NCBI GenBank assembly: GCA_018675425.1
Contig: JABGYD010000044.1
Coordinates: 1 to 55,725 of the forward strand
Direction: 5' to 3'
Length of the DNA stretch: 55,725 nucleotides
From: Kordiimonadaceae bacterium
GTDB taxonomy: Bacteria > Pseudomonadota > Alphaproteobacteria > Sphingomonadales > Emcibacteraceae
Within the stretch, counting starts at the first letter, position 1; the number at the start of each line of letters is the position of its first letter. The notes beneath the pieces are model-generated. The model did not search any database, was not told the origin of the DNA, and saw only the letters and a list, made by a program, of their open reading frames with translations. Made by a program: the position numbers and the translations under genes. This document shows positions 24,895 to 55,117 of the stretch, piece after piece.

Positions 24895-25680
24895 TAGCCC
24901 AAGTACTTTAAGACTAGCAACGCCCAATTCTGTTCGGAGCCGCGCATCATTTATATTATTCATATCAATATTCAGGGCAAAGGCGTATATTTTTTCATCG
25001 CGTTCAATCCAACCTACCCACCAACCAATACCGGGGTCTGTTGCAGTTTGCCATCCAGTTTTCACATATAATGTATAATCTTCAGTTTTTTGAATTTCTA
25101 AAATTTCTGCAATCGCTTCCTGATGCGAAACCTTAAAGTCAAGTTTTTTCTTCGCAAGCATGGAAATAAATAAGACTTGTTCCATAGCACTTATTTGAAG
25201 TGGTCCATCAAGCCAAAACCTATCAATAAGTAGTCCTAAATCCATATTTCCGTAATTAAGTTTAGTTATATTTTTTTGCATTCTAAATAGATTAATTCGA
25301 CGAGCAAGCTCCTGATATATGGGAACATTTGATATTTTAATTGCATCACGAAGCGACATATTATGCTCCCATGATTTAATAGGCTGATCTTCACCTCCGT
25401 ATGGTAATACCTCATCCACATTCTTTACCGCTCCAACTGATAATCCTATCAAGCTATTACCTATTTTAAAAGTTGAACCCGGTATATACCTAGTCTTTGA
25501 GCGAGCTTCATTAAAACCAACAAACAGGTCATTACTGATGTCATAAAGAACAAAAGTTCCCTTGACCTTTTTTTCATCAAATATTATTTTTATATCACTA
25601 TTGTTAGTCCACTCTGCAGATAATGCCTGAATTGAAAACAAACCAGTCATAAAAGTAATCAAGAGGTATTTATAAATCAT
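24889..25680 (-). CDS. Class D (OXA-type) beta-lactamase
   Basis: Serine beta-lactamase, probably exported by the N-terminal signal peptide (to about LSA, 20-22). The 263-residue product carries the class D motifs: S69-T-F-K72, S117-N-V in [16 protein letters not shown]143-G-N, W in [12 protein letters not shown], and K207-T-G followed by [12 protein letters not shown]. All catalytic residues are present, so it may be active, though substrates cannot be told. The start overlaps the scpA stop (ATGA), so the two are translationally coupled. Base composition matches the surroundings, which argues against recent arrival on a resistance element. Confidence 0.9.
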
Positions 25681-27812
25681 AATTTCTCTTCAAGAACGTC
25701 TATAACTTTTGAAGCAGCATCGGGAATATTTGTTCCGGGACCAAATATTGCTGAGACGCCAGCTTTATAGAGTTCATCATAATCATGGGTTGGAATAACC
25801 CCACCCGCAACTACTAGAATATCATCTGCCCCTTCAACCCTCAGTGCGTTGATCAGACTAGGAATGAGGGTCTTATGTCCTGCAGCCTGAGAGGATACCC
25901 CAATAATATGAACATCATTTTCGATGGCTTCGCGCGCCGTTTCAGCGGGCGTCTGAAAAAGTGGCCCCACATCAACATCAAACCCAATATCAGCAAAAGC
26001 TGTAGCTATAATTTTTGCTCCTCGATCATGACCATCCTGCCCCATTTTAGCGACTAGTATGCGTGGACGGCGTCCTACTTTTTCAGCAAACGCTTCAATT
26101 TTATTTTGAATATTCACGTAATCTTTATCCCCTTTATAAGCTGCACCATAAATACCAGAAATAGACTTAATTTCCGCGCGGTGACGACCAAATACTTCTT
26201 CCATGGCGTCTGAAATTTCCCCAAGTGTAGCACGAGCACGCGCTGCAACAATTGATTTTTCAAGTAGATTGTCACTTCCTGCGGCAGCATTAGTCAGCTC
26301 TTTAAGAGCCGCTTGGCATTTGTCATCGTCGCGTTCTTTTCTCAATACTTCTAGTTTCTTAATTTGTATTTTACGTACAGCTAAATTATCAATCCTTAAA
26401 ATATTTATTTCTTCTTCTTCAACCAGACGATGTTTATTGACGCCCACGACGGTTTCTTCACCCATGTCAATTCGCGCCTGTTTCATAGCTGCAGCTTTCT
26501 CAATATCAAGTTTGGGCAGGCCTTTGGAAACCGCTTTGGTCATGCCACCGACATCTTCAATTTCAGTAATAATTTTCCAAGCTTCTTGAACCAATTGATC
26601 AGTCAAGCTTTCAACATAAAAAGAGCCGCCAAGAGGATCCACTACATTGGTTAAATTAGCTTCTTCCTGAAGAATAATCTGAGTGTTTCTAGCAATACGG
26701 GCCGATGCATCAGTTGGCAGCGCCATCGCCTCATCGAAAGAATTTGTATGCAGGGACTGGGTCCCCCCAAATACTCCTGCCATACCTTCGATAGTTGTGC
26801 GGATTACATTATTATAAGGGTCCTTCTCAGTGAGTGATGCACCAGATGTTTGACAATGAGTTCTCATCATCATACTTTTTGGGTTCTTAGCACCAAAATT
26901 TTCCATAATTTGCGCCCAAATGGTCCTGGCAGCTCTTAGCTTTGCTACCTCCATAAAGAAATTCATTCCAATAGCAAAAAAGAAACTAAGCCGTGGGGCA
27001 AAATCATCAATATCAAGCCCCTTTGCCATAGCAGTTCGCACATATTCCATCCCATTAGCTAGGGTATAGGCAAGCTCCTGCAGTTGATTTGAGCCTGCCT
27101 CCTGCATATGATAACCAGAAATAGAAATACCGTTATATTTGGGCATTTTTTTCGAAGTGTATTCTATAATATCTCCAACGATGCGCATACTTGGTTCAGG
27201 TGGATAAATATAAGTGTTGCGTACCATAAATTCTTTCAGAATATCATTCTGAATTGTTCCACTAAGTTGATCATGTTTGACCCCCTGCTCCTCGGCAGCA
27301 ACGATATAAAAAGCAAGACATGGAATGACTGCGCCGTTCATTGTCATGGATACAGACATTTTATCAAGGGGTATACCATCGAACAGTATTTTCATGTCTT
27401 CAACACTGTCAATGGCAACGCCGGCTTTTCCAACGTCTCCCTCAACCCGCGCATGATCACTATCATAACCTCGGTGAGTTGCCAGATCAAAAGCAACAGA
27501 TAATCCCATTTGCCCTGCTTCAAGATTTTTACGATAAAATAAGTTACTTTCTTCGGCAGTAGAAAAACCAGCATACTGCCTGATCGTCCAAGGCCTAGCG
27601 GCATACATAGATCCTCTGATGCCCCGAGTATATGGGAAAAAACCTGGTAAATTATCTTTATGAGCAACGCCCACAAGGTCATCTGCCGTATAAAGCGGCT
27701 TAACTTTAATTCCTTCAGGGGTTTGCCAATTTAAATCATCCAAGGATTTGTTTTTTATCTCACCAGAAACCAGCATGCGCCAGTCATCTATAGTTTTTGA
27801 CTTCTTAACCAA
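25677..27812 (-). CDS. scpA: Methylmalonyl-CoA mutase, single-chain
   Basis: Adenosylcobalamin enzyme that interconverts methylmalonyl-CoA and succinyl-CoA, used for propionyl-CoA assimilation or the reverse. The 711-residue chain has the N-terminal TIM-barrel catalytic domain ([30 protein letters not shown]) and the C-terminal B12 domain with the D-x-H-x-x-G motif [10 protein letters not shown], His at about 595, plus SSQAAGH and VVAGGVIP. This is the homodimeric layout of E. coli Sbm/ScpA. It follows metH by 81 bases on the same strand and may be read from its own promoter there. Confidence 0.96.
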
Positions 27813-27893: not shown

Positions 27894-30539
27894 TCAGCGC
27901 TGATACCCTAGATTAGGAGCTAGCCATCTTTCCGTCAGTTTTAAGTCTATATCCTTACGTATTGCATAATCCTGCACCTGGTCTTTTGATATTTTACCAA
28001 GCCCAAAATATTGGCTTTCTGGGTGAGAAAAATAATAGCCGCTGACAGACGAAGTTGGCAGCATTGCCATACTTTCCGTCAGTTCAATGCCTGTATTACG
28101 TTGAGCATTGAGCAACGTAAACAGACCGCTTTTTTCTGTATGGTCCGGGCACGCTGGATATCCTGGAGCTGGTCGAATACCAAGGTATTTTTCCTTAATA
28201 AGCGCTTCATTGTCTAAACTTTCGTCTTTCGCGTAACCCCAAAAATTCTTACGAACTAGCATATGCATATGTTCTGCAAATGCCTCTGCAAAACGATCTG
28301 CTAATGCCTTAAGTAAAATATCATTGTAATCATCATTTGCACCTTGAAATAGTTCAATTTTTTCTTCAATCCCAATTCCCGTAGTAACTGCAAAACCACC
28401 GATATAATCTTTAATACCAGTCTTTTTAGGTGCCACAAAATCAGCCAGACACATGTTAGCTTTACCACTTCTTTTTTTCATTTGTTGACGAAGAAAGTGA
28501 ACCGTATCAATCGGTATTTTTCGACTTTCATCTTCATATAGCTCCACATCATCACCTACTGAATTTGCCGGCCAGAAACCGATAACTGCTTTTGCTTTTA
28601 GCCATTTTTCATTAATTATTTTTTGAAGCATTTCTTCGGCATCTTTAAAGAGGTCACGGGCACTTTGCCCTACAATTTTATCTTCTAGAATTTTTGGATA
28701 AGTACCTGCAAGTTCCCAAGTTCGAAAGAAGGGTGTCCAATCGATAGTGTCTGCAAGGTCCGCAAAGTCATATTCGTTAAATACCTTTAGCCCCTTAAGT
28801 TTTGGTGACTTGGGGGTGTGAGCTTTCCAATCAATTTTAAAATTATTGGCCCGCGCTTCGTTTATAGAAATTTGATTGTTTGATTTATCACGGTTTTCAT
28901 ATTTTACGCGCATATCATGATATTCTTTTGATATATCTTCACTAAACTGTTCTTTAGTATTTTTATTAAGTAAGCTGCCTGCGACGCCAACTGCCCGGGA
29001 AGCATCAAGAACATAAACTAAGGGCCCACTATAATTTGGTGCAATTTTAACGGCCGTATGGACTTTTGACGTAGTTGCACCACCGATTAGAAGTGGTAAA
29101 TCCATATTGAGACGCTCCATTTCGCTAGCGACCGTGCACATCTCCTCAAGCGATGGCGTAATAAGACCGGAAAGTCCGATCATATCGACATTCTCTTCCT
29201 TGGCTTTAGCAAGTAAAGCATCACAAGGTACCATTACCCCCATATCTATAACTTCATAATTATTACACTGAAGTACAACCCCAACGATATTTTTACCTAT
29301 ATCATGGACGTCCCCCTTAACAGTAGCCATCAAAATTTTACCGTTAGAGGATGAAACTGTACTATCATCTTTCTCCTCTTCAATGAACGGCAAAAGATAG
29401 GCTACGGACTGTTTCATTACTCGCGCTGATTTTACCACTTGCGGAAGAAACATTTGACCTGAGCCAAAAAGGTCCCCTACCACATTCATTCCCGCCATCA
29501 GTGGCCCTTCGATAACTTGAATTGGTCGATCAAATTGTTGTCGGGCTTCTTCAGTATCCTCTATGATAAAAGCAGTGATACCTCTAACCAAAGCATAGGA
29601 AAGGCGCTCCTCAACCGTACGGTTTCTCCATTCCAAATCTTCTTTTTTTACTTCGCCTTTGACACCTTTATATTTATCCGCAATCTCAAGAAGGCGGTCT
29701 GTTGCATCGTCACGACGATTAAGTATTACATCTTCAACGCACTCGCGCAGCTCATTAGGAATTTCCGAATAAACCGTCATCATTCCTGCATTCACAATTC
29801 CCATATCCATCCCTGCTTGGATAGCATGATATAAAAAGACACTGTGCATAGCTTCACGGACGGGATTATTACCCCGAAATGAGAAGGAAACGTTACTAAC
29901 TCCGCCAGATACATGACAATATGGAAGATTATCTGTAATTTTTCTAGTCGCTTCAATAAAATCTACGGCGTAATTATTATGTTCCTCAATCCCTGTTGCC
30001 ACAGCAAAAATATTAGGATCAAAAATTATATCCTCAGGTAAAAAGCCTACTTTTTCAATAAGAACTTTATAAGACCTCGCGCAAATATCAAATTTTCGAT
30101 CGAGGGTATCAGCTTGCCCTTTTTCATCAAAAGCCATAACTACCGCTGCTGCACCATAACGCTTAATAAGTTTTGCTTGCTCGATGAAGTTTTCTTCACC
30201 TTCTTTCAGAGAAATACTATTAACAACAGCTTTACCCTGCACACATTTCAGGCCAGCCTCAATAACACTCCACTTAGAACTATCAATCATAATCGGCACA
30301 CGTGAAATATCTGGCTCTGAAGCAATTAAATTTAAAAATTTAACCATCGCAGCTTCTGAGTCGAGCATCGCTTCATCCATATTGATATCAATGATCTGTG
30401 CTCCAGCCTCAACTTGTTGTAATGCGACGACAAGCGCTTCATCAAAGTTACCGTTTAAAATAAGCTTCTTAAATTTAGCTGACCCTGTAACGTTAGTCCG
30501 CTCACCAACATTAATAAAAATACCTTGCTTCTTTTTCAT
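27894..30539 (-). CDS. metH: MetH C-terminal part: folate, cobalamin and reactivation domains
   Basis: Cobalamin-dependent methionine synthase without its homocysteine domain. The 881-residue protein has the pterin-binding barrel (from [13 protein letters not shown], residue 8), the B12 cap, the B12-binding domain with D410-V-H412-D-I-G (His412 is the cobalt ligand), and the SAM-binding reactivation domain at the end ([14 protein letters not shown]). The missing homocysteine module is the preceding gene, which ends one base upstream; AAGGTGA at its 3' end acts as ribosome site. Split MetH is known in several alphaproteobacteria. The two products must act together. Confidence 0.95.
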
Positions 30540-30540
30540 A

Positions 30541-31596
30541 TCAAATCACCTTAAAGGGTTCTAGCCCACTAAGGCGCATGTGAGGCTCAATTACTGGAAC
30601 TTTACGTGGTGCGCAATTCTCTACAGCCATGGAAATGGCTCGAATATGATCAGGTCTGGTACCGCAACACCCACCAACAATATTTAAAAATCCACTCTCA
30701 GCCCATTCTTTTATTTGAGCAGCCATTTCTTCTGGACTTTCATCATATTCACCCATTTCATTGGGAAGACCAGCATTGGGGTGAGCAGAAACCGCCGTAT
30801 CAGCAACCTTGGAGAGGGCCGCAACATGTTGACGGAGATCTTTGGCACCAAGAGCACAGTTAAATCCTATACTAATAGGATTTGCATGCCGAATACTGTG
30901 CCAAAATGCTTCGGCAGTCTGACCGGACAGAGTTCGCCCAGAGGCATCTGTAATAGTACCAGAAATCATTACTGGCAGTTCAATATCCATTTTTTCAAAA
31001 ATTGTTTGCACGGCAAATATTGCCGCCTTAGCATTGAGAGTATCAAATATAGTTTCAATGAGAATAATATCAGCACCTCCATCAATAAGACCATTTGTTG
31101 CTTCTTTATAGGTACCAACAAGTTCATCAAAATTCACATTTCGAAACGCAGGATCGTTGACATCAGGTGAGAGTGATGCTGTGCGTGAGGTTGGACCTAG
31201 AACACCCGCTACAAAACGGGGTTTATTAGGGGTGAGAGCAGTGAATTCATCAGCCACTTTACGGGCAATCTTTGCACAGGCAACGTTGAGTTCATAAACT
31301 ATATCTTCCATTTGATAATCCGCCTGGGAGATACTTGTTGCATTAAAACTATTTGTTTCAATAATATCAGCGCCGGCCTCTAAAAATTCTCTATGGATAT
31401 CGCTGATAACATTAGGTTTTGTTATAGCAAGAATATCGTTATTACCTTTAATTTCGTTATTTTTATCTTTAAATACTTCTCCGCGAAAATCTTCTTCTTC
31501 AAATTTATAGGCCTGTATCATAGTGCCCATGGCGCCATCTATAATCAGTATTCTTTCAGACAAAGCATCCTGAAGCTGTTTGAATCGAGTTGTCAT
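30541..31596 (-). CDS. metH: MetH N-terminal part: homocysteine S-methyltransferase domain
   Basis: Activates homocysteine on zinc for methylation by methyl-cobalamin. From the ATG at 31596, which overlaps the metF stop (ATGA), the product has 351 residues; a longer frame reaching into metF is not credible. It starts [28 protein letters not shown] and has the zinc ligands C247 (GFNCALGA) and C310/C311 ([11 protein letters not shown]). It ends after [18 protein letters not shown], just where a full-length MetH would continue into the folate domain. Confidence 0.95.
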
Positions 31597-32498
31597 GATC
31601 CTTCTCTTATTCCAAGAATATGGCAAATTGTAGAGGTGAGTTCCGCACGATTGAGCGTATAGAAATGATAGTTTTTGACACCACCACGATAAAGTCTCAA
31701 GCACTGCTCTGCAGCCACCATAGACCCAATATGTTTTTTAATGTCAGGTGTATCTTCCAAACCTTGAAAAATGCGCCCCAACCATTCTGGTATCGAGGTT
31801 CCACAACGTTCAGAAAAAATTTTTGCCATCTTAAAGTTAGTAACAGGCATAATTCCGGGTATAATTGGAACATTAATACCTGCTGCGAGAACTTTATCCA
31901 TAAAGCGAAAGTATACATCAACATCAAAAAAATATTGGGTGATGGCACGGTTCGCTCCCGCATCAATTTTGCGTTTTAAGTTATCTATGTCGTCACTTAA
32001 ATCATTACTATCAGGATGCATTTCGGGGTAAGCCGCCACAGAAATATCAAAATCACCAATTTTTTTTAAACCAGCAACTAACTCTGCTGCATTTTCATAG
32101 CCTTCAGCTTTTGGTTTATATTTTTGACCTATAGTTGGCATATCTCCACGAAGAGCTACAATATGACGCACTCCAGCCCTCCAATAATCATGCGCAACCT
32201 CATCCACCTCATTTTTAGTTGCTCCAACACAAGTCAAATGTGCTGCAGGTGTCAGGTTCGTTTCTTTTAAAATACGTGTAACGGTCGCATGGGTGCGCTC
32301 TCTGGTACCCCCGCCAGCACCGTAAGTGACCGAGACCATCGATGGATTAAGCCTTTCAAGTTTGCCAATGGTTTGCCAAAGTATCTCTTCCATTTTTGCC
32401 GTTTTGGGCGGAAAAAACTCAAATGACACATCAATATCTTTTGCATGCTCCGCAAAAAGACTAGGTCTTAAATAATCTTTATTTTCGTCTGTATACAT
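31593..32498 (-). CDS. metF: MetF, 5,10-methylenetetrahydrofolate reductase
   Basis: Flavoenzyme that makes 5-methyl-THF, the methyl donor for MetH. The 301-residue TIM-barrel protein has [42 protein letters not shown] and [14 protein letters not shown], all MTHFR signatures. It lies between the ArsR-methyltransferase fusion (12-base gap) and metH (4-base overlap), so the operon makes and uses methyl-THF in one unit. Confidence 0.97.
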
Positions 32499-45711: not shown

Positions 45712-46239
45712 CTATACTTTCTGACGTTTATTTTTTTTGTTAAAAACACGTTTAACATAAGGATAGATGAACATGTAAAGTCCAGTGATCCATAATAAAA
45801 ACAGTAAAACTGCTGTTGGGAGAATTATAAAATATTTTACACCATTACCAAAATAAGAACCGTCATGAATTTTTTCAAAAAAATCAGATCTTCGCTCTGC
45901 AACAGATAATATCGATCCATTGGTAGTATCTACCTGTACTTCCCAACCCTCTATCGTCATGAACTTAACCATTCCGCGATCAACCTTATAATCAATGCGA
46001 TCAAATTCTGCCCATTTCAACCCCTCAGTTTGGGGAATACTCGTTGCAGTTGCTAGTAATGCATCATGTGAAATTATGGGTGTAGCCTCACTTTGTCCGC
46101 TAATACTCGGCGGTTGTATCCAGCTAAAGTCTTTCTTTAACTGAAGAAAAAAACCAGAAACGACTATCAGTAAAAGAGGTAGAGCAATAAAAATGGAGAT
46201 CCAGTTATGAACAGTCCGATTTAACTTTGTAAGCTTCAT
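45712..46239 (-). CDS. PepSY-domain inner-membrane protein
   Basis: Small membrane protein of the PepSY-associated family, found with iron uptake or protease regulation. The 175-residue product has an N-terminal membrane segment (about 12-34: WISIFIALPLLLIVVSGFFLQL), a periplasmic PepSY-like region (ALLATATSIPQTEGLKWAEF, WEVQVDTTNGSILSVAERR), and a C-terminal membrane segment (YFIILPTAVLLFLLWITGLY). It ends 12 bases before the amidohydrolase start. Confidence 0.8.
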   Translation of the reverse strand: MKLTKLNRTVHNWISIFIALPLLLIVVSGFFLQLKKDFSWIQPPSISGQSEATPIISHDALLATATSIPQTEGLKWAEFDRIDYKVDRGMVKFMTIEGWEVQVDTTNGSILSVAERRSDFFEKIHDGSYFGNGVKYFIILPTAVLLFLLWITGLYMFIYPYVKRVFNKKNKRQKV

Positions 46240-46415
46240 TTCATACTCACTAAATAAATATATTTTAAATTCCTTAGTAATTCTGTCAATAATGTATCAA
46301 CTACTAATCAAAACTCAATAATGAAATATAAATATAGTAAAAAACACTTGAATTAATTATTTTTTTTAGGATATCTTCCAAACTTATTAATCTAATAAAT
46401 AGGGAAGAGGGTGCC

Positions 46416-47744
46416 ATGAGCTATAAAATAAATAAAAATAAACACCTGAACGCCTACTGGATGCCATTTACGCCAAATCGAGCGTTCAAAGAAAAACCCC
46501 GCCTTTATAAGAGCGCAAAAGGACTTTATTATCAAACCACAGACGGACGCCAGGTTTTGGATGCCATTTCAGGTTTATGGTGTTCAAACCTTGGCCATTG
46601 TCACCCAAAAATTACTGAAGCCATTCAAAAACAAGCGGCTAAACTTGATTACTCAACTGCATTTAATTTTGGTCATGAGGACGCTTTCCAGTTAGCCAAT
46701 ATTCTAGTTGATCAATTTCCTAAGTCATTAGGACACGTTTTTTTTACAAACTCCGGCTCAGAGGCAGTTGATACGGCACTTAAAATAGCCCTCGCATATC
46801 ATCAGGTGAATGGCGAAAAGTCGAGGACACGTCTGATCGGTCGAGTTAAGGGCTATCATGGCGTTGGTTTTGGCGGTGTTTCTGTCGGTGGAATGTCAAA
46901 TAACCGTAAATATTTTGGAAATCTCCTCAGTGATGTAGATCATTTACCGTTCCCATATAATGAAAACGAAAATGCCTTTACTCGAGGCGAACCCGAAGAA
47001 AACCCAATGCATTATCTCAATGAACTTGAGCAAATAATTAAAACTCACGGTGCTAAAACAATCGCCGGTGTTATCGTTGAACCAGTGATTGGCTCTGCGG
47101 GTATGTTTGTTCCTCCCAAAGGTTATCTTAAAAAGCTTCGTCAAATTACAAAAAAACACGGAATTCTTCTTATATTTGATGAAGTAATTACCGCGTTTGG
47201 TCGGCTGGGCACCGCTAACGCTGCCACATATTTTGATGTTATACCCGATATGTGTACTATTGCAAAAGGCTTGAATAATGGAGCAGTACCTATGGGCGCT
47301 GTGGTTGTATCAAAGCAAATATATGATTGCTTCATTGATGGAACAAAAGAAGGAGTAGAATTGTTTCACGGCTATACTTATTCAGCCCACCCGCTAGCCG
47401 TTGCCTCTGGGCTCGCTTCTCAAAAAATCTACAAAGAAGAGAGTATTTATGATCGGGTAAAAAACAATGTTAAGTATTTTGAAGATGGTATGCACAATTT
47501 AATGGATAGCCCACACATAACCGACATTAGAAATATTGGCCTGGCAGGTGGTTTGACCATTGCCTGCCGTGATAATAAGGTTGGTGCCCGAGCTTATGAT
47601 TTGTTTCTCAAAGCATATGAACTTGGCATTGGAATTCGAGCTAATGGTGATACAATAGTCATTGCACCTATCTTGACGAGTTCAAAAAAAGAATTGGATC
47701 CAATTTTTGATATCCTTGAACAGGCATTAAAAAAAATTAAATAA
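46416..47744 (+). CDS. Class III aminotransferase, omega-amino acid:pyruvate type
   Basis: PLP enzyme moving the amino group of beta-alanine or another omega-amino acid or amine to pyruvate. The 442-residue protein has AYWMPFTPNRAFKEKPRL and DGRQVLDAISGLWCSNLGHCHP, typical of beta-alanine:pyruvate transaminases, the cofactor Asp in LIFDEVITAFGRLG, and the Schiff-base Lys in CTIAKGLNNGAVPMGAV. It starts after GGGAAGAGGG and is 27 bases from mmsA, whose product oxidises the malonate semialdehyde that beta-alanine deamination gives. Confidence 0.9.
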   Translation: MSYKINKNKHLNAYWMPFTPNRAFKEKPRLYKSAKGLYYQTTDGRQVLDAISGLWCSNLGHCHPKITEAIQKQAAKLDYSTAFNFGHEDAFQLANILVDQFPKSLGHVFFTNSGSEAVDTALKIALAYHQVNGEKSRTRLIGRVKGYHGVGFGGVSVGGMSNNRKYFGNLLSDVDHLPFPYNENENAFTRGEPEENPMHYLNELEQIIKTHGAKTIAGVIVEPVIGSAGMFVPPKGYLKKLRQITKKHGILLIFDEVITAFGRLGTANAATYFDVIPDMCTIAKGLNNGAVPMGAVVVSKQIYDCFIDGTKEGVELFHGYTYSAHPLAVASGLASQKIYKEESIYDRVKNNVKYFEDGMHNLMDSPHITDIRNIGLAGGLTIACRDNKVGARAYDLFLKAYELGIGIRANGDTIVIAPILTSSKKELDPIFDILEQALKKIK

Positions 47745-47771
47745 CTTCCTTAATTTTAAAGAGAATAAAAT

Positions 47772-49271
47772 ATGTATAAGATAGATCATTATATTGGCGG
47801 TCAAACTGTAGGGGCAACGAGTGATCGTACTGCTCCAATTTATGATCCATCAAACGGCACCGTACAAGGTGAAGTTGGACTTGCTTGCAAGATAGATATT
47901 AATCTTGCTGTTACTGTTGCTAGTGAAGCCTTCGAAACATGGTCCGACGTCGGACTTATGAAGCGTGTTTCAATAATGTTCAAATTTCGAGAGTTACTTG
48001 AAAAAAATCGTGACGAACTTTGCAGGCATGTAGTAAAAGAGCATGGTAAAGTTTGGGATGACGCCATGGGTGAAATTACACGCGGTATTGAAATTGTTGA
48101 AAATGCCTGCGGCATCCCTGAAATGTTAAAAGGTGATTATTCACAGCAAGTAGGCGACGGTATAGATGTTTATAGCACCCGGCAGGCACTCGGGGTTGTT
48201 TGCTCAATTACACCCTTTAATTTTCCAGCTATGGTGCCTCTATGGACCATTCCACTAGCAATCGCCTGTGGTAATACATTTATTTTAAAACCTTCAGAAC
48301 GTGACCCATCATGTGCTAATGTGATGGCACGCTTATTTTCTGAAGCCGGTCTTCCAGACGGTGTTTTTAATGTAGTCCATGGTGATAAAGTTGCTGTTGA
48401 TTGTATACTCGAGCATGAAGGTATAGAAGCAGTAAGCTTCGTAGGCTCAACACCGGTAGCTGAATATATTTACCATCTGGGAACTGCCAATAATAAGCGG
48501 GTACAAGCTCTTGGTGGTGCTAAAAATCATGCAATTATTATGCCAGACGCCGATATTGACCAAGCTGTTGATGCAATGATAGGTGCAGCATTTGGATCAG
48601 CCGGTGAACGCTGTATGGCCCTATCTGTCGCAGTGGTTGTTGGAAACGACATTGCAGATGAAATGATTAATAAAATCAAATACCAAGCAATAAATATTAA
48701 AGTCGGGTGCGGCATGGTAACGGACAATGAAATGGGTCCCCTCATTACTAAAGAGCATTGTGATCGCGTAAAGAGACTTATTTCAGAGGGTCAAGGACAA
48801 GGTGCAAAAGTAGTTCTTGATGGGCGTGAATTTGAAGGCCCCAAGGGTAATAAAAATGGATATTTTTGTGGCCCAACTATCTTGGATAATGTGACAAAAG
48901 ATATGTCTGTATATAAAGAGGAAATTTTTGGTCCAGTCTTAGTAGTTGTGCGCGTAGAGAGTTACGACGAAGCAGTAAAACTTGTTCAGAACCATGAGTA
49001 TGGAAACGGCACATGTATTTTTACCCGCGACGGAGATATTGCTCGTAATTTCACTCGAAAAATAAAAGTGGGTATGGTTGGCGTTAATGTACCCCTTCCT
49101 GTACCGCTTGCTTTTCATAGTTTTGGTGGTTGGAAAAGGTCGATATTTGGTGATCATCATATGTATGGACCCGAAGGAGTTCGTTTCTGGACAAAAATTA
49201 AAACTGTGACCTCACGCTGGCCAACTAGCATTATGGCTGGTGCCAACTTAAGTTTCCCATCAAGCGATTGA
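47772..49271 (+). CDS. mmsA: CoA-acylating methylmalonate/malonate semialdehyde dehydrogenase
   Basis: Converts malonate or methylmalonate semialdehyde to acetyl-CoA or propionyl-CoA with NAD and loss of CO2. The 499-residue protein has SITPFNFPAMVPLWTIPLA, FVGSTPVAEYIY, LGGAKNHAIIMPDAD, the catalytic Cys in GSAGERCMALSVAV (about 285), and FGGWKRSIFGDHHMYGPEG. These are MmsA/IolA signatures. It couples to the preceding transaminase, and its propionyl-CoA product could feed the methylmalonyl-CoA mutase in the window. Confidence 0.95.
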   Translation: MYKIDHYIGGQTVGATSDRTAPIYDPSNGTVQGEVGLACKIDINLAVTVASEAFETWSDVGLMKRVSIMFKFRELLEKNRDELCRHVVKEHGKVWDDAMGEITRGIEIVENACGIPEMLKGDYSQQVGDGIDVYSTRQALGVVCSITPFNFPAMVPLWTIPLAIACGNTFILKPSERDPSCANVMARLFSEAGLPDGVFNVVHGDKVAVDCILEHEGIEAVSFVGSTPVAEYIYHLGTANNKRVQALGGAKNHAIIMPDADIDQAVDAMIGAAFGSAGERCMALSVAVVVGNDIADEMINKIKYQAINIKVGCGMVTDNEMGPLITKEHCDRVKRLISEGQGQGAKVVLDGREFEGPKGNKNGYFCGPTILDNVTKDMSVYKEEIFGPVLVVVRVESYDEAVKLVQNHEYGNGTCIFTRDGDIARNFTRKIKVGMVGVNVPLPVPLAFHSFGGWKRSIFGDHHMYGPEGVRFWTKIKTVTSRWPTSIMAGANLSFPSSD

Positions 49272-49333
49272 TAATCATGTGCTTGATGTTTTGAAAAAAT
49301 ATATAAATAGAATTTTAAGAAAGATTTATAGTA

Positions 49334-50536
49334 ATGGAAAAACTAGCGCCGCAGAAGAAACGGATTGATGGCAGCACATCAGGTTGGTCACTGGATCGAG
49401 ACTTTTACAAAGATCCTGAAATATTTGAGAAGGAAAAAGAAAAAATCATCTTTGATAATTGGATTTTTGCGGGTCATGTATCCCAAATACCTAATGCTGG
49501 TGATTATTTTTTATTTAACCTACTTGAAGAAAGTATAATTATTATTCGTGGTAATGACATGGAAATTAGAGCCTTTTTTAATGTATGCCGTCATCGTGGC
49601 TCTCATGTATGCTTAGAAAAAACGGGTAATTCAAAACGTTTTATTTGCCCCTACCATGCTTGGACTTATGATATTGAGGGTAGCCTCTTTGCTGCACGAG
49701 GTATGCCAGATAGTTTTGATAAATCCAATCACGGTCTTCACCCATGCGCCATGGACATTATCGAAGGTATGGTTTTTATTAATTTTGGAGATAACCCCGT
49801 ATCATTAGAAAATGTGAAACGTGACCTCGCGGGACCACTCAAAATGTATGATTTTAACAACCTAAAAGTAGCAGCTCACAAGCGCTACCCAATTGACGGT
49901 AACTGGAAAATCACGCTAGAAAATTACCAGGAATGCTATCACTGTGCCCCATCGCACCCCGAATATTCACTAAGTCATACTTTTAAAGTTGAGGATGATA
50001 AATTTGAGGAACTTCAAAAACCAATGCTTTCGCGTATGGAAGCATTGGGTGTGGGAACCCATGAGTACGATTATCAGTTTGACAAACAGCAAGAGGGGCA
50101 AGAAAATTACGCATGCAGCCGGTATGCACTTTTTGAAAAATACAAAACGGGAAGCCAGGATGGTAAACCGTTAGCACCACTTCTCGGAAACTTATTAGGC
50201 TATGATCATGGCGCCCTCGATATAAATATCGGCTCTTTTACCTATTATCTATGCTATAATGATCATATAATTGTCTATGTATTTACCCCTACAGAGCATG
50301 AAAAATCAGCCTGTGACATATATTGGCTTGTGCGTAATGACGCTGAGGAAGGTAAAGATTACGACCTTGATAAGCTAACCTGGCTTTGGAATGCAACAAC
50401 TCTCGCGGATGAGCGCATCATTGTGGATAATCAAAAAGGGGTCAATAGCAAAAAGTATCAATCCGGCCCCCTAGCTATTAAAGAAAAACTTATTGAACGT
50501 TATATTGTTTGGTATTTACACCAATTGGCTAAATAA
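49334..50536 (+). CDS. Rieske non-heme iron oxygenase, quaternary-amine (carnitine/betaine) type
   Basis: Oxygenase alpha subunit. The 400-residue protein has the Rieske cluster ligands C85-x-H87 and C105-x-x-H108, and the catalytic iron site ENYQE200CYH203CAPSH208. The residue that bridges cluster and iron, normally Asp in aromatic dioxygenases, is Glu200 here, as in carnitine oxygenase CntA and glycine-betaine demethylases. So N-demethylation or C-N cleavage of a methylated amine is more likely than ring hydroxylation. No reductase partner lies nearby. It follows mmsA by 62 bases. Confidence 0.88.
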   Translation: MEKLAPQKKRIDGSTSGWSLDRDFYKDPEIFEKEKEKIIFDNWIFAGHVSQIPNAGDYFLFNLLEESIIIIRGNDMEIRAFFNVCRHRGSHVCLEKTGNSKRFICPYHAWTYDIEGSLFAARGMPDSFDKSNHGLHPCAMDIIEGMVFINFGDNPVSLENVKRDLAGPLKMYDFNNLKVAAHKRYPIDGNWKITLENYQECYHCAPSHPEYSLSHTFKVEDDKFEELQKPMLSRMEALGVGTHEYDYQFDKQQEGQENYACSRYALFEKYKTGSQDGKPLAPLLGNLLGYDHGALDINIGSFTYYLCYNDHIIVYVFTPTEHEKSACDIYWLVRNDAEEGKDYDLDKLTWLWNATTLADERIIVDNQKGVNSKKYQSGPLAIKEKLIERYIVWYLHQLAK

Positions 50537-50597
50537 TGACAAAAAGTAAAAAGACGCATAAATTAATGCATAATAATGATTTAGAATAGCGGTATGA

Positions 50598-50969
50598 ATG
50601 ACTAGTTCAACAGAAAAATATTCTATAAAACTGCAGATTATTAACGAAGACCATATTGCTATGGGTCCAGGAAAAGCAGACCTGCTTGAAGCAATTCAGA
50701 AAACAGGCTCTATAGCTGCTGCTGGGAGAGCAATGACAATGAGTTACAAACGTGCCTGGGACCTTGTTGAAATCATGAATATGTGTTTTACAGAACCTCT
50801 AGTTAAGAAATCGAAAGGTGGGATCAAGAAGGGCGGCACAACTTTAACACCACTAGGACTTAAAGTGATTGATCAATATAGAGCCTTAGAAGTAAAATCT
50901 AACGGCGCTATTAAGAAAGAAATGAATACCTTTTTTTCTCTTTTAAAGCATCCCCCCTTAGATAAATAA
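50598..50969 (+). CDS. modE: ModE-type molybdate-responsive regulator (HTH only)
   Basis: Winged-helix DNA-binding protein of the ModE/LysR-like molybdenum regulator family. The 123-residue protein has MGPGKADLLEAIQKTGSIAAAGRAMTMSYKRAWDLV and GGTTLTPLG, which match the ModE N-terminal domain. The C-terminal molybdate-binding Mop domains of E. coli ModE are absent, so sensing must be indirect or of another kind. It lies 60 bases upstream of modA, with an inverted repeat between. Confidence 0.88.
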   Translation: MTSSTEKYSIKLQIINEDHIAMGPGKADLLEAIQKTGSIAAAGRAMTMSYKRAWDLVEIMNMCFTEPLVKKSKGGIKKGGTTLTPLGLKVIDQYRALEVKSNGAIKKEMNTFFSLLKHPPLDK

Positions 50970-50971
50970 AC

Positions 50972-50977
50972 TTGACA
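50972..50977 (+). promoter_or_regulatory. Candidate -35 box of the modABC promoter
   Basis: TTGACA lies 2 bases after the modE stop codon. With standard spacing the -10 region falls inside the inverted repeat at 50994-51025, so bound regulator would block polymerase. The -10 itself is not clear. Confidence 0.4.
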
Positions 50978-50993
50978 GAAACGACTTATTAAT

Positions 50994-51025
50994 TTACCGA
51001 TATATTTATAAAAACATATCGGTAA
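50994..51025. promoter_or_regulatory. Candidate ModE operator upstream of modA
   Basis: TTACCGATAT, 12 bases, ATATCGGTAA: perfect 10-base arms. The CGATAT/ATATCG cores with this symmetry resemble known ModE sites (CGnTATATA-type half-sites). The right arm ends 4 bases before the modA ATG and provides the only weak ribosome site (GGTAA). Confidence 0.75.
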
Positions 51026-51029
51026 ATGT

Positions 51030-51779
51030 ATGAAATTGCTAATATTTATATTTGTATGGCTCAACTTAACGGCCACTCTGAGTGCAAAAGAGTTACGTGT
51101 TGCCGTTGCCACAAACTTTATGGAAGCAGCAAAAGAAATTAGTAAAGCATTCGAAAAAAACACTGAGCATACTACACTCCTTAGTTTTGGCTCGACAGGA
51201 CAGCTTTATACGCAAATTTCTCAGCATGCGCCCTTTGAAGTATTTCTTGCTGCTGATCAGGTACGGCCAAAGAAAACAGTCAAAGAGGATCTTGCAGTTC
51301 AAGGTAGTCGTTTCACCTACGCTAGTGGGAAAATTGTCTTATTCAGCCTCAACCAAACGCTGATCAACCCCAAAATTACCCTTGAGCAGGGAAATTTTAC
51401 TAAAATAGCAATCGCTAATCCTATTACCGCACCATACGGCATTGCCGCTATTCAGGTGATGAAAAATCTAAAACTATACAAATATCTAAAAAGTAAAATT
51501 GTTTATGGAAACAATATTGCACAGACATATCAATTCGTTCATACAGAAAATGCAGAACTTGGTTTCATAGCTTTGTCTCAAACTATAAAATCATCGGTAG
51601 GCTCACATTGGGTTGTCCCAAAAGAACTCTACTCAAATATTTATCAGGATGCCGTACTATTAAAGCAGGGCATCAATAATCCAGCCGCATACGAATTTCT
51701 TGAATTTCTAAAAGGGCCAGAAGCAACGAATATAATAGCTCAATATGGTTATGGTATCAGCAGCGATGAGAAAATATAA
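51030..51779 (+). CDS. modA: ModA, periplasmic molybdate-binding protein
   Basis: Solute-binding protein of the molybdate/tungstate ABC importer. The 249-residue product has a signal peptide (to about LSA, 17-19), [45 protein letters not shown] and [18 protein letters not shown], all ModA signatures. The stop overlaps the modB start by one base (TAATG). Confidence 0.94.
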
Positions 51780-52462
51780 TGCCTGAATATGCTGATTTAT
51801 GGTCACCCATCCGCCTGACACTAGAATTAGCAGGTATTACTACAATTATCCTACTTCTCATTGGCACCCCGATTGCGTGGTGGCTCTCACGTTCTAACTC
51901 GAAATGGAAAGATATTATTGCTGTCATTGTTACCCTTCCACTTGTACTACCACCAACAGTTATTGGTTTTTATTTACTTATAGCACTCGGTCCACAAGGT
52001 CCAGGTGGATGGATTGCTTCTATTTTTGGTGGCCGCTCTCTTGCCTTCACCTTTGAAGGACTAGTGGTTGGGTCCGTGATCTATTCACTACCCTTTGTGG
52101 TCCAGCCAATCCGCAACTCTTTTGATGCCATGGGTTCTCGGCCACTTGAAGTAGCAGCAACCCTTGGGGCATCGCCTTGGAATGCATTTTGGACCGTTGC
52201 AGTTCCGCTAGCAAGGCCAGGTTTTTTGACTGGAACGATCCTTGGCTTTACACATACTATTGGTGAATTTGGTGTCGTCCTCATGATCGGTGGCAACATT
52301 ATGGGTGAAACTAAAGTACTTTCAATCGCTATTTATGATTATGTAGAAACCTTATATTGGACCCCTGCACACATTCTTTCCGCTGGAATGCTTCTCTTTT
52401 CCTTCGTTATTATCTTTTCCATGATGAAAATGGAACGATATTTTCGGCAAACAGGAAAATGA
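51779..52462 (+). CDS. modB: ModB, molybdate ABC transporter permease
   Basis: Inner-membrane permease. The 227-residue protein has five membrane segments, starts [20 protein letters not shown], and has [17 protein letters not shown] and the cytoplasmic coupling loop [25 protein letters not shown], then [16 protein letters not shown]. It overlaps modA by 1 and modC by 4 bases. Confidence 0.96.
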
Positions 52463-53292
52463 GTGGAGTTAAAAACATAAAGGCATCCTTCAACGGCAGC
52501 ATAGACAACTTCAATTTAGATGTTAAATTTACTATGCCTATTGAAGGTATTACGGCTCTTTTTGGTCCATCTGGATGTGGAAAAACAACTATTCTTCGCT
52601 GCCTTGCAGGACTTAATAAATTACCTGGATATTTATTTTTTGGAGATGAAGTTTGGCAAAACGAAAACCAATTCATAAATGCACACGAAAGATCAATTGG
52701 CTATGTCTTTCAAGAAGCAAACCTATTTCCCCATTTATCGGTTCGTAAAAATCTCAACTATGGAGCGCAAAGAGCAAAAGCACATTACTTAAAAGAAAGG
52801 TTTCATTTTAACGATGTTGTTGAACTCCTCGGCATACAACACCTTCTTGAAAGGAATACAGTTTCTCTTTCTGGTGGCGAGAGACAACGCATTGCCATTG
52901 GGCGAGCCATTCTCGCACAACCAAAATTTTTGCTCATGGATGAGCCTCTTTCAGCGCTTGATAAGGTGTCTAAGAGGAATATCTTTTTTTGTTTCGAAAA
53001 GCTACAACGGGAGTTCAAACTTCCTATTCTTTACGTCAGTCACGATATAGATGAGGTTGCCAAGCTCTCTGGTCATATTATTGCGCTTGATAATGGTAAA
53101 AAAATTACTGAAGGGCCTGCAACAGATGTTTTGGCTCAATTAAAACTTAGCACTTCTTTAAGTGCGCGTATTATAGGCCATGATCTCGAGAAAAAACTCA
53201 CTTGGGTCCAATATAAGGAGCAAACACTTAGTATTCCACTTCAAGATAATCCAATAGGTGCTCTACTGAAAATCGATTTTCAAAGTTACTAA
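52459..53292 (+). CDS. modC: ModC, molybdate ABC transporter ATPase (short form)
   Basis: Drives molybdate import. The ATG at 52459 overlaps the modB stop (ATGA) and gives 277 residues; an upstream in-frame start inside modB is not credible. It has Walker [10 protein letters not shown] (36-44), Q-loop [12 protein letters not shown], signature LSGGERQR (138-145), Walker [14 protein letters not shown]. coli ModC has about 350 residues with a C-terminal Mop domain; here only about 55 residues follow the ATPase core, so a full Mop domain is missing. Confidence 0.93.
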
Positions 53293-53993: not shown

Positions 53994-54560
53994 ATGAAAA
54001 AGAATTTAACTCAAATATTGATTGCGTTTTTCCTTTTACTCGAGCCAGCTAATCTACTCGCACAAACAGACGACTACAGGGATAAATCAAGTATTGACGA
54101 AGCCTTTAAGTTAGAACTTGAAGCACTAGGTTTTGAGAATGGTGAGTACCCCAAAACTAAAAGTAATTATGGTTATCAAGTCACTGATAATTTTATACAT
54201 ATTCCCACTGCCTCCGCACTTGCACCCGATGGGTCAATTCAAAAAGGGCATGTGCCAAATATCGCCAGCCAAAACGAAGCTATACATGCATCTTCTCTAG
54301 CCTGCGCAGCGGCAATTAACTTACTTAAAGATGCTGCCAATGGCGACTTAAGCCGCATTCGTAAAGTTGCTAACATTAGATATAGGACTTTAACCGTACC
54401 CGAATATTTTAATTATGTTCCAACATCTAACGCCTGCTCTGAAATGATGGTGCGTGTACTTGGTAATTCCGCAGGTACTCATACCCGGCATGCCGAAGGC
54501 CTTGCTACTTCAGACGACAACCAGACTTTTCAAATTGAACTGATGGCTTATTTAAAATGA
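53994..54560 (+). CDS. Exported RidA-like (YjgF/chorismate-mutase-like fold) protein 1
   Basis: The 188-residue product has a signal peptide (cleavage near LLAQ, residue 24) and a mature domain that starts LELEALGFENGEYP and contains ASALAPDGSIQKGHVPN, EAIHASSLACAAAINLLKDAANGDLSRIRKV and HTRHAEGLATSDD. This is the pattern of the YjgF_YER057c_UK114-like_1 group. Cytosolic RidA deaminates reactive enamines; the role of exported relatives is unknown. The start of the next gene overlaps its stop by 4 bases. Confidence 0.75.
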   Translation: MKKNLTQILIAFFLLLEPANLLAQTDDYRDKSSIDEAFKLELEALGFENGEYPKTKSNYGYQVTDNFIHIPTASALAPDGSIQKGHVPNIASQNEAIHASSLACAAAINLLKDAANGDLSRIRKVANIRYRTLTVPEYFNYVPTSNACSEMMVRVLGNSAGTHTRHAEGLATSDDNQTFQIELMAYLK

Positions 54561-55117
54561 TGAAAAAATTAATATCTATTGCATTAATAGTCTTTATCTC
54601 TTCATGCGCTAAGCAGGAAGTTATGGAAACAGAAGATACCATCGGTGCCCGATTAGAAATTGAACTAACGCGTCTTGGTTTTAAAGACGGCATGCCCGAA
54701 CTACCGCCCGTCTTTGGCCCTTACCTTCCCTTTCTGACAGTGGATAAGGAAATATATATTACTGCCTCCGCAGCTTTTACACCAGAAGGCACTTGGATCA
54801 CTGGCCTCGTAACAAATGAAACTGATCCGAAACATGTCCTATATGCCGCTGAACTAAGTGTTATACAGGCAATCAACCGTGTCCGCCTTGCAGCGGGTGG
54901 AGATTTAAATAATGTTGCAAAGCTTCACCATGTGAATGTCATGACCACGGCACCAAATGATTATCCACATACAGAGATGATTGCCCAAGCTACATCCGAC
55001 ATGATCATCAGAATCTTAGGGACAGAAATAGGTCAACACTCCAGAGGAATTATAAGAAGCACATCACTGCCCATCAACATGACACACGAAACGGAAATAC
55101 GGGCAGCTTTAAAATAA
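54557..55117 (+). CDS. Exported RidA-like lipoprotein 2
   Basis: Product of 186 residues with a lipobox ISSC (Cys17), then the same fold as its upstream neighbour: LEIELTRLGFKDGMPELPP, ASAAFTPEGTWITGLVTNE, ELSVIQAINRVRLAAGGDLNNVAKLHHV, HTEMIAQATSDMIIRILG, HSRGIIRSTSLP. The last part fits the YjgF-like_1 subfamily more closely than does paralogue 1. The ATGA overlap suggests equal amounts and perhaps a heteromeric trimer of one soluble and one anchored subunit; that is inference. Confidence 0.8.
   Translation: MMKKLISIALIVFISSCAKQEVMETEDTIGARLEIELTRLGFKDGMPELPPVFGPYLPFLTVDKEIYITASAAFTPEGTWITGLVTNETDPKHVLYAAELSVIQAINRVRLAAGGDLNNVAKLHHVNVMTTAPNDYPHTEMIAQATSDMIIRILGTEIGQHSRGIIRSTSLPINMTHETEIRAALK

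Follow-up and report, generated by a model that had tools for sequence, protein, structure and literature searches.

What would a Rieske non-haem iron oxygenase (RO) contribute to a pair of genes for the breakdown of omega-amino acids? The question is raised by three intact open reading frames (ORFs) that follow one another on contig JABGYD010000044.1 of a Kordiimonadaceae bacterium (GenBank assembly GCA_018675425.1; genome G000, 2.2 Mb in 94 contigs, 99.6% complete); this contig, C72, analysed over its whole length of 55,725 nucleotides, is called the window below. All three genes lie on the forward strand, with intergenic gaps of 27 bp and 62 bp, and they code for an AptA-type omega-amino acid:pyruvate aminotransferase (46416..47744, 442 aa), a CoA-acylating (methyl)malonate-semialdehyde dehydrogenase, MmsA (47772..49271, 499 aa), and the alpha subunit of an RO of the quaternary-ammonium group, group V (49334..50536, 400 aa). 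The original prediction had read the trio as one pathway for a methylated omega-amino compound, with N-demethylation or cleavage of a betaine followed by transamination and conversion to acetyl-CoA or propionyl-CoA. We propose, with a probability of about 0.4, that the RO is an accessory enzyme that feeds a methylated omega-amino acid, by N-demethylation, into beta-alanine catabolism.

The identities first given to the three genes stood up to comparison with curated models: the aminotransferase scores 654 bits against NCBIfam NF052567 (cut-off 500), MmsA 676 bits against TIGR01722 (cut-off 448.5), and the RO passes the cut-offs of both PF00355 and PF00848. The best matches in the PDB are a beta-alanine:pyruvate transaminase for AptA (4b98, E 1e-128) and two methylmalonate-semialdehyde dehydrogenases for MmsA (4zz7, E 5.7e-189; 5tjr, E 1.2e-188). 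Pairs of the AptA-MmsA type convert beta-alanine to acetyl-CoA and 3-aminoisobutyrate to propionyl-CoA. Across the 32 genomes of the family, MmsA has a match in 26 (E<=1e-150) and AptA in 24 (E<=1e-100). Moreover, in six genomes from g5, another genus of the family (L152, L153, L154, L156, L157 and L159) a PreT-like gene and PreA are followed, as read by eye, by an AptA homologue and MmsA, in stretches that hold an NCS1 permease in five cases and a dihydropyrimidinase in four; those of L152 and L156 stop at contig ends, and the PreT-like gene of L152 is in two pieces. When the pyrimidine genes of one of these genomes, L153, were checked with hidden Markov models (HMMs), PreA (662 bits, cut-off 335), dihydropyrimidinase (599, cut-off 393) and the NCS1 permease (377, cut-off 353) passed, a hydrolase that by eye resembles beta-ureidopropionase scored 236 bits with its best model, below the cut-off of 410, and no model was passed by the PreT-like protein. 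Because the curated cut-offs are passed in the window and homologous pairs stand among pyrimidine-degradation genes in relatives, we interpret AptA and MmsA as an ordinary beta-alanine catabolic module, in which AptA would convert beta-alanine (or 3-aminoisobutyrate) with pyruvate to malonate (or methylmalonate) semialdehyde, and MmsA would convert this in turn to acetyl-CoA (or propionyl-CoA). As the g5 aminotransferases are 51-53% identical to AptA of the window and group in a tree with another AptA-like protein, from G026, strict orthology is not claimed for them; the AptA tree was set aside as evidence of orthology, since long branches meet in it.

The pair thus described is like beta-alanine catabolism by an omega-aminotransferase and MmsA, which we take to be the BauA/BauC type, in that the two genes are adjacent and both above their family cut-offs, and unlike it in the added oxygenase gene and in the company it keeps: PreA was found (E<=1e-100) in none of the 13 genomes of the window's genus, g1, against nine of the 16 in g5 and none of the three remaining family genomes. 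Consequently, the breakdown of pyrimidines by way of PreA was discarded as a present source of beta-alanine in genus g1. The window also contains scpA on the reverse strand (25677-27812; NF006944, 1239 bits, cut-off 876), which had been put forward as the consumer of propionyl-CoA; the gene is there and fits such a use, yet it is unlinked to the trio, lying 18.6 kb away on the opposite strand.

Among solved structures, the RO is nearest by sequence to the uncharacterised protein 3n0q, the stachydrine demethylase Stc2 (3vca, E 4.4e-66) and CntA (E 2.7e-45). An AlphaFold model computed from a 36-row alignment (pLDDT 92.9) superimposes by VIA-align on 3vca with Z 46.5 (rmsd 2.0, 380 aligned, 32% identity) and on 3n0q with Z 46.4, followed by CntA (6y9c) with Z 33.1 (rmsd 2.9, 341 aligned) and by aromatic oxygenases from 31.0 down; Foldseek places the groups in the same order, with 3n0q on top. 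Of the enzymes whose function is known, the stachydrine N-demethylase is the nearest to the RO by sequence and modelled fold alike. The Rieske ligands C85/H87/C105/H108, the iron ligands H203/H208/D359 and the bridging carboxylate E200, which had been noticed from the start, are invariant in all 36 rows of our alignment A2, made up of the window RO and 35 relatives picked by hand from 69 full-length candidates that were found with sequence seeds, one of these seeds containing E200. The enzyme carries the marks of group V, namely a Rieske CXH...CXXH motif, a 2-His-1-Asp iron site, a bridging Glu and a Cys-X-X-Cys pair, the last present in some group V members, and its placement in the quaternary-amine group, as first suggested, is borne out by motif, sequence and fold. 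The available excerpts of PMC7948474 give quaternary amines as the substrates of those group V enzymes for which a substrate is known. The bridging Glu had further been taken to be as in carnitine and betaine oxygenases; it is indeed shared with these, but it indicates no single substrate, as glycine betaine-type and stachydrine enzymes have it too. Being common to Stc2, CntA and a GbcA-like RO on contig C77 of the same genome, it was rejected as a substrate marker.

A finer division is offered by the residue at position 203 of CntA, which, in the available parts of PMC7948474 and PMC10952381, separates group Va with Tyr or Phe (carnitine and choline enzymes, with Phe in the benzalkonium enzyme) from group Vb with Asn (the demethylases GbcA and Stc2); a Cys pair adjoining the iron is reported there for quaternary-amine ROs. 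Alignment with CntA, Stc2 and relatives puts Tyr198 of the window RO (codon 49925..49927, forward strand) at this position, followed by Glu200, Cys201, Tyr202, the iron ligand His203 and Cys204 (codons 49931..49945, forward strand), with Cys201/Cys204 corresponding to CntA Cys206/Cys209; the motif reads ENYQECYHC in the window, DNYMECYHC in CntA and ENNRECYHC in Stc2. The aromatic residue of group Va is therefore present and the Asn of group Vb is not, whereas the CntA pocket residues Tyr315 and Phe319 are replaced by Leu351 and Thr355 (in a CntA part of the alignment that is weak, at 0.9 bits) and Trp352 aligns with Trp353 in the catalytic helix of Stc2. Hence the RO resembles Stc2 in its closest fold of known function, bridging Glu, Cys-X-X-Cys and Trp352, and departs from it in Tyr198 and in an identity of 32%; it resembles CntA and YeaW in the Tyr at the pi-cation position, the bridging Glu and the Cys pair, and departs from them in lower overall similarity, a catalytic half barely alignable by sequence and the lack of an adjoining reductase gene. 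Like GbcA of the GbcAB system it is a group V oxygenase, with a GbcB-like reductase elsewhere in the genome, but it carries Tyr rather than Asn, has no reductase alongside, and reaches 295 bits against the GbcA model NF058607 (cut-off 670); on this score, identity with GbcA was rejected. We interpret it as a mixed enzyme; since a carnitine/choline-type Tyr198 sits on a demethylase-like body, its reaction is unreadable from sequence by the Va/Vb rule.

We then examined the linkage of the RO to the pair in relatives, whose co-occurrence bears directly on the reading of the trio as one pathway. An RO match (E<=0.001) is present in 26 of the 32 family genomes, and at 65% identity or more there are seven genes (eight rows, since two belong to the G029 gene) in six genomes: G000, G020, G023, G027, G029, and two genes in G031. 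MmsA lies directly 5' of this RO on the same strand in four of the six (G000, G020, G027 and G029), and the full trio is present in three (G000, G020 and G027). As this same-strand order recurs in G020, G027 and G029 despite RO identities of only 65-68% to the window protein, we consider it more than chance. The genes are tightly packed in two of these genomes, the gaps to the first possible start codon being 14 and 18 bp in G020 and 14 and 1 bp in G027; in both, a gene for a transporter of the MFS type follows the RO within 15 bp, and a PuuR/cupin-type regulator is divergent. The MFS protein is at least 62% identical in G023, G027 and G031. In G029 (L040 7525-8813) the RO gene is broken into two parts that lie in different frames, and MmsA has no AptA next to it, which may reflect decay or an assembly error.

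At a larger scale the RO is sparse, with a match (E<=1e-90) in 18 of 396 genomes of the order. Our set of named loci consists of the best 80 of 283, found with the seeds ENYQECY and [YF]YKDP[EAS]IF, and may omit records of or near the window's genome; the uniform Tyr198 in it is partly built in by these seeds, and the family search (32 genomes) and a plasmid search (364 records, 6 of which were examined) are less biased. One locus, L112, gave no RO ORF. The closest RO matches among these best 80 are metagenome-assembled genomes labelled Kordiimonadaceae and Emcibacteraceae; the trio is found in L057 and MmsA-RO in L119, which may coincide with G027 and G029, respectively. A tree of 43 of the 95 collected ROs, with the G023 row cut to 365 residues where its frame runs into unrelated sequence and G029 represented by its C-terminal piece, unites the seven ROs in one clade (100/99) within which trio-linked and unlinked rows are intermixed; its deep placement of the RO relative to CntA and GbcA was unusable, given a YeaW branch of 5.58 and a fork support of 66/91. 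Genomes with and without the RO are likewise intermixed in a weakly resolved MmsA tree. Both patterns would be compatible with an ancient linkage that was lost in some lineages, and equally with genes that came together more than once. The linkage is conserved yet narrow, and the RO is dispensable to the module.

The neighbours of the wider RO family were named by eye except where an HMM check is given, and counted over flanks of variable reach (some loci span less than 5 kb), at identity thresholds of 34% for flavoproteins and T-proteins, 40% for a HemL-like aminotransferase and 60% for AptA, MmsA and AptA-like proteins. Near the RO, 52 of the 80 named loci carry a gene homologous to one or both of two flavoproteins; homologues of a class III aminotransferase (four kinds were compared), of a folate T-protein (GCV_T) and of a BetI-like regulator are there in 32, 26 and 24 loci, respectively. 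The two flavoproteins and two T-proteins tested against Pfam are Amino_oxidase and GCV_T proteins, the remainder being named by similarity. In G060 the genes run flavoprotein, flavoprotein, T-protein and RO on one strand, and in G027 genes of the flavoprotein and T-protein types lie beyond the divergent regulators. Pot-like ABC transporter genes adjoin the RO in a number of loci. A gammaproteobacterial RO (L060 6943-11149) follows genes for a methyltetrahydrofolate:corrinoid methyltransferase and corrinoid activation, identified by an HMM check on L060; L059 and L062-L065 are similarly arranged by ORF lengths only, and these gammaproteobacterial ROs, 55-58% identical to that of the window, branch next to its clade (91/38). 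Genes of this corrinoid kind are reported, in the excerpts of PMC12478193, for cobalamin-dependent glycine betaine demethylation. On one Leisingera plasmid, the RO adjoins a gene of the trimethylamine methyltransferase family. As this company consists of genes for methylated-amine breakdown, the family context favours N-demethylation.

In light of this context, the RO would most likely demethylate a methylated omega-amino acid at the nitrogen and release formaldehyde, beta-alanine betaine being the natural candidate for the substrate; AptA would then take the resulting amine into the module. No reductase gene was seen beside the window RO, and its electrons would be delivered by a reductase encoded at another locus. 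The genome holds two ROs and two matches to the ferredoxin-NAD(P)-type reductase domain PF00175, one in a 774-aa frame on C60 and the other in a GbcB-like protein (C77:6807-7862; 254 bits, cut-off 500) next to the second RO, which is GbcA-like (483 bits against NF058607) with Asn at the Tyr198 position. Genes for sarcosine oxidase alpha and beta subunits, both above their cut-offs, are close by. The search for a reductase elsewhere, called for at the outset, thus yields one plausible candidate, the GbcB-like protein, and the C77 cluster could supply both electrons and later demethylations. A more specific version, in which the three genes form an operon dedicated to the catabolism of beta-alanine betaine or a closely related compound, with the carnitine-type Tyr of the RO set on a stachydrine-demethylase body, and in which the carbon enters either through AptA after N-demethylation or through MmsA as malonate semialdehyde with release of trimethylamine, we put forward as tentative and on the whole doubtful.

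Several observations weigh against an accessory demethylase serving the module. The residue at position 198 is that of the carnitine and choline enzymes, the known demethylases having Asn there. The MFS gene and regulator of G020 and G027 are not beside the window trio, the best MFS match anywhere in the genome being 24% identical; in their place, a short ModE-like regulator (77 bits, cut-off 98.5) and a modABC-like run, by eye a molybdate transporter, follow the RO on the same strand (50598-53292). Five of the eight AptA-MmsA pairs in the genus lack the RO (G021, G022, G023, G024 and G025) and three carry it; MmsA of G022 is interrupted by stops, and the pair of G024 is spread over two contigs, with nothing RO-like in the 1.7 kb from MmsA to the contig end. 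G023 has the order AptA-MmsA, cupin and MFS gene with its RO on a separate contig. G031, which has two ROs, gave no MmsA match at E<=1e-150; its MFS gene adjoins genes of the flavoprotein and T-protein types. Among the named loci no trio occurs outside the family, and in the available flanks MmsA lies within seven ORFs of the RO, on one side or the other, in two of the 79 loci with an RO ORF. Finally, of the family neighbours described above, the flavoprotein gave no match at E<=1e-30 in the window genome, where 27 candidates were scored, and the T-protein-containing model has no match at E<=1e-60, SoxA, which has a T-protein part, matching at 7e-55. Thus, the one-pathway reading of the trio keeps its linkage in some relatives, at four of six genomes for MmsA-RO and three of six for the trio, but it is not a fixed association, and homologous pairs elsewhere are surrounded by pyrimidine genes.

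In G031 (L035 1126-4830 and 16783-19165), an APH-type kinase gene stands after each of the two RO copies, and the first of these kinases shares one frame with a class III aminotransferase (PF01636 and PF00202), an arrangement that recalls hydroxylysine or ethanolamine phospho-lyase systems.

The separation of RO and pair in G023 and G031, the five pairs without an RO, the intermixing of genomes with and without it in the MmsA tree, and the corrinoid genes beside the RO of L060 in the neighbouring branch all speak for an RO whose substrate is some different quaternary amine (choline, glycine betaine, proline betaine or other) and whose place next to the module stems from common regulation, or from a rearrangement that was inherited, rather than from a shared pathway. 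We regard this as rather unlikely, as it sits poorly with the same-strand order and 1-18 bp gaps in G020 and G027, kept across ROs 65-68% identical, and with the presence, elsewhere in the genome, of a second RO of GbcA-like type together with a GbcB-like reductase and sarcosine oxidase genes, even if the GbcA and GbcB cut-offs are not reached.

CntA itself converts carnitine to malic semialdehyde and trimethylamine, according to the excerpts of PMC10952381 and PMC7948474. By analogy, the RO might hydroxylate the carbon next to the nitrogen of beta-alanine betaine to give trimethylamine and malonate semialdehyde, with MmsA taking the semialdehyde and AptA serving as a separate entry from beta-alanine. 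Tyr198 and the Cys201/Cys204 pair would suit such a cleavage, as would the adjacency of MmsA and RO in all four linked genomes, with AptA missing there in G029, and the failure to find the flavoprotein and T-protein in the window genome. Nevertheless, sequence and fold lie nearer the demethylase Stc2 (Z 46 vs 33), the CntA pocket residues are replaced and the Stc2 Trp is kept, and no FMO-type enzyme (E<=0.001) or TMAO-demethylase (E<=1e-60) was matched in the genome, so that the trimethylamine would probably be lost; we hold this cleavage to be unlikely. Very improbable is a polyamine-side route, in which the module would degrade polyamine-derived omega-amino acids (e.g. 3-aminopropanal to beta-alanine) and the RO would remove an N-alkyl or N-methyl group from an amine on that route: the PuuR/cupin-type regulator divergent from AptA in G020, G027, G022 and G023 (127 bits in G020, PuuR cut-off 211) and the Pot-like transporters near some ROs point that way, but this regulator is not beside the window trio, no polyamine gene is in it, and the known substrates of group V are quaternary amines.

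The accessory N-demethylase that we prefer would join a quaternary-amine RO of narrow distribution to a known beta-alanine module. Beta-alanine betaine is named as a compatible osmolyte of halophytic Limonium in the title of a reference cited in PMC4744692. Among the matches listed in our literature search there was no paper on a gene for beta-alanine betaine breakdown and no published description of the AptA-MmsA-RO trio, a weak negative given that most subscription journals fell outside the search. If the dedicated-operon proposal were true, it would identify an oxygenase that acts on beta-alanine betaine and would predict whether formaldehyde or trimethylamine is released from it in such organisms. 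The combination of Tyr198 with an Stc2-like body is also a direct test of the published one-residue split between groups Va and Vb.

Around the RO of L056, L067, L069, L093, L169 and other loci there recurs a set comprising a BetI-like regulator, two Amino_oxidase-type flavoproteins, a GCV_T protein and a GntE/HemL-like aminotransferase, joined in some loci by an acyl-CoA dehydrogenase, an acyl-CoA synthetase-like protein and a Pot-like ABC transporter. We found no published description of this set around an RO, and it may represent a wider methylated-amine pathway.

Upstream of the trio are divergent genes for an amidohydrolase and a PepSY protein. A scan of 46100-51100 for regulatory sites gave 19 promoter-like sites (16.3 expected) and eight terminator-like sites (3.8 expected, sd 2.0) and was uninformative, save that both gaps of the trio are free of terminator-like sites on the forward strand. 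Elsewhere in the window, a methionine synthase is apparently split over two ORFs (27894-31704) beside a metF-like gene and an ArsR-methyltransferase-like fusion, and a tandem pair of genes with signal-peptide-like starts (53994-54560 and 54557-55117) is RidA/YjgF-like, both being readings by eye.

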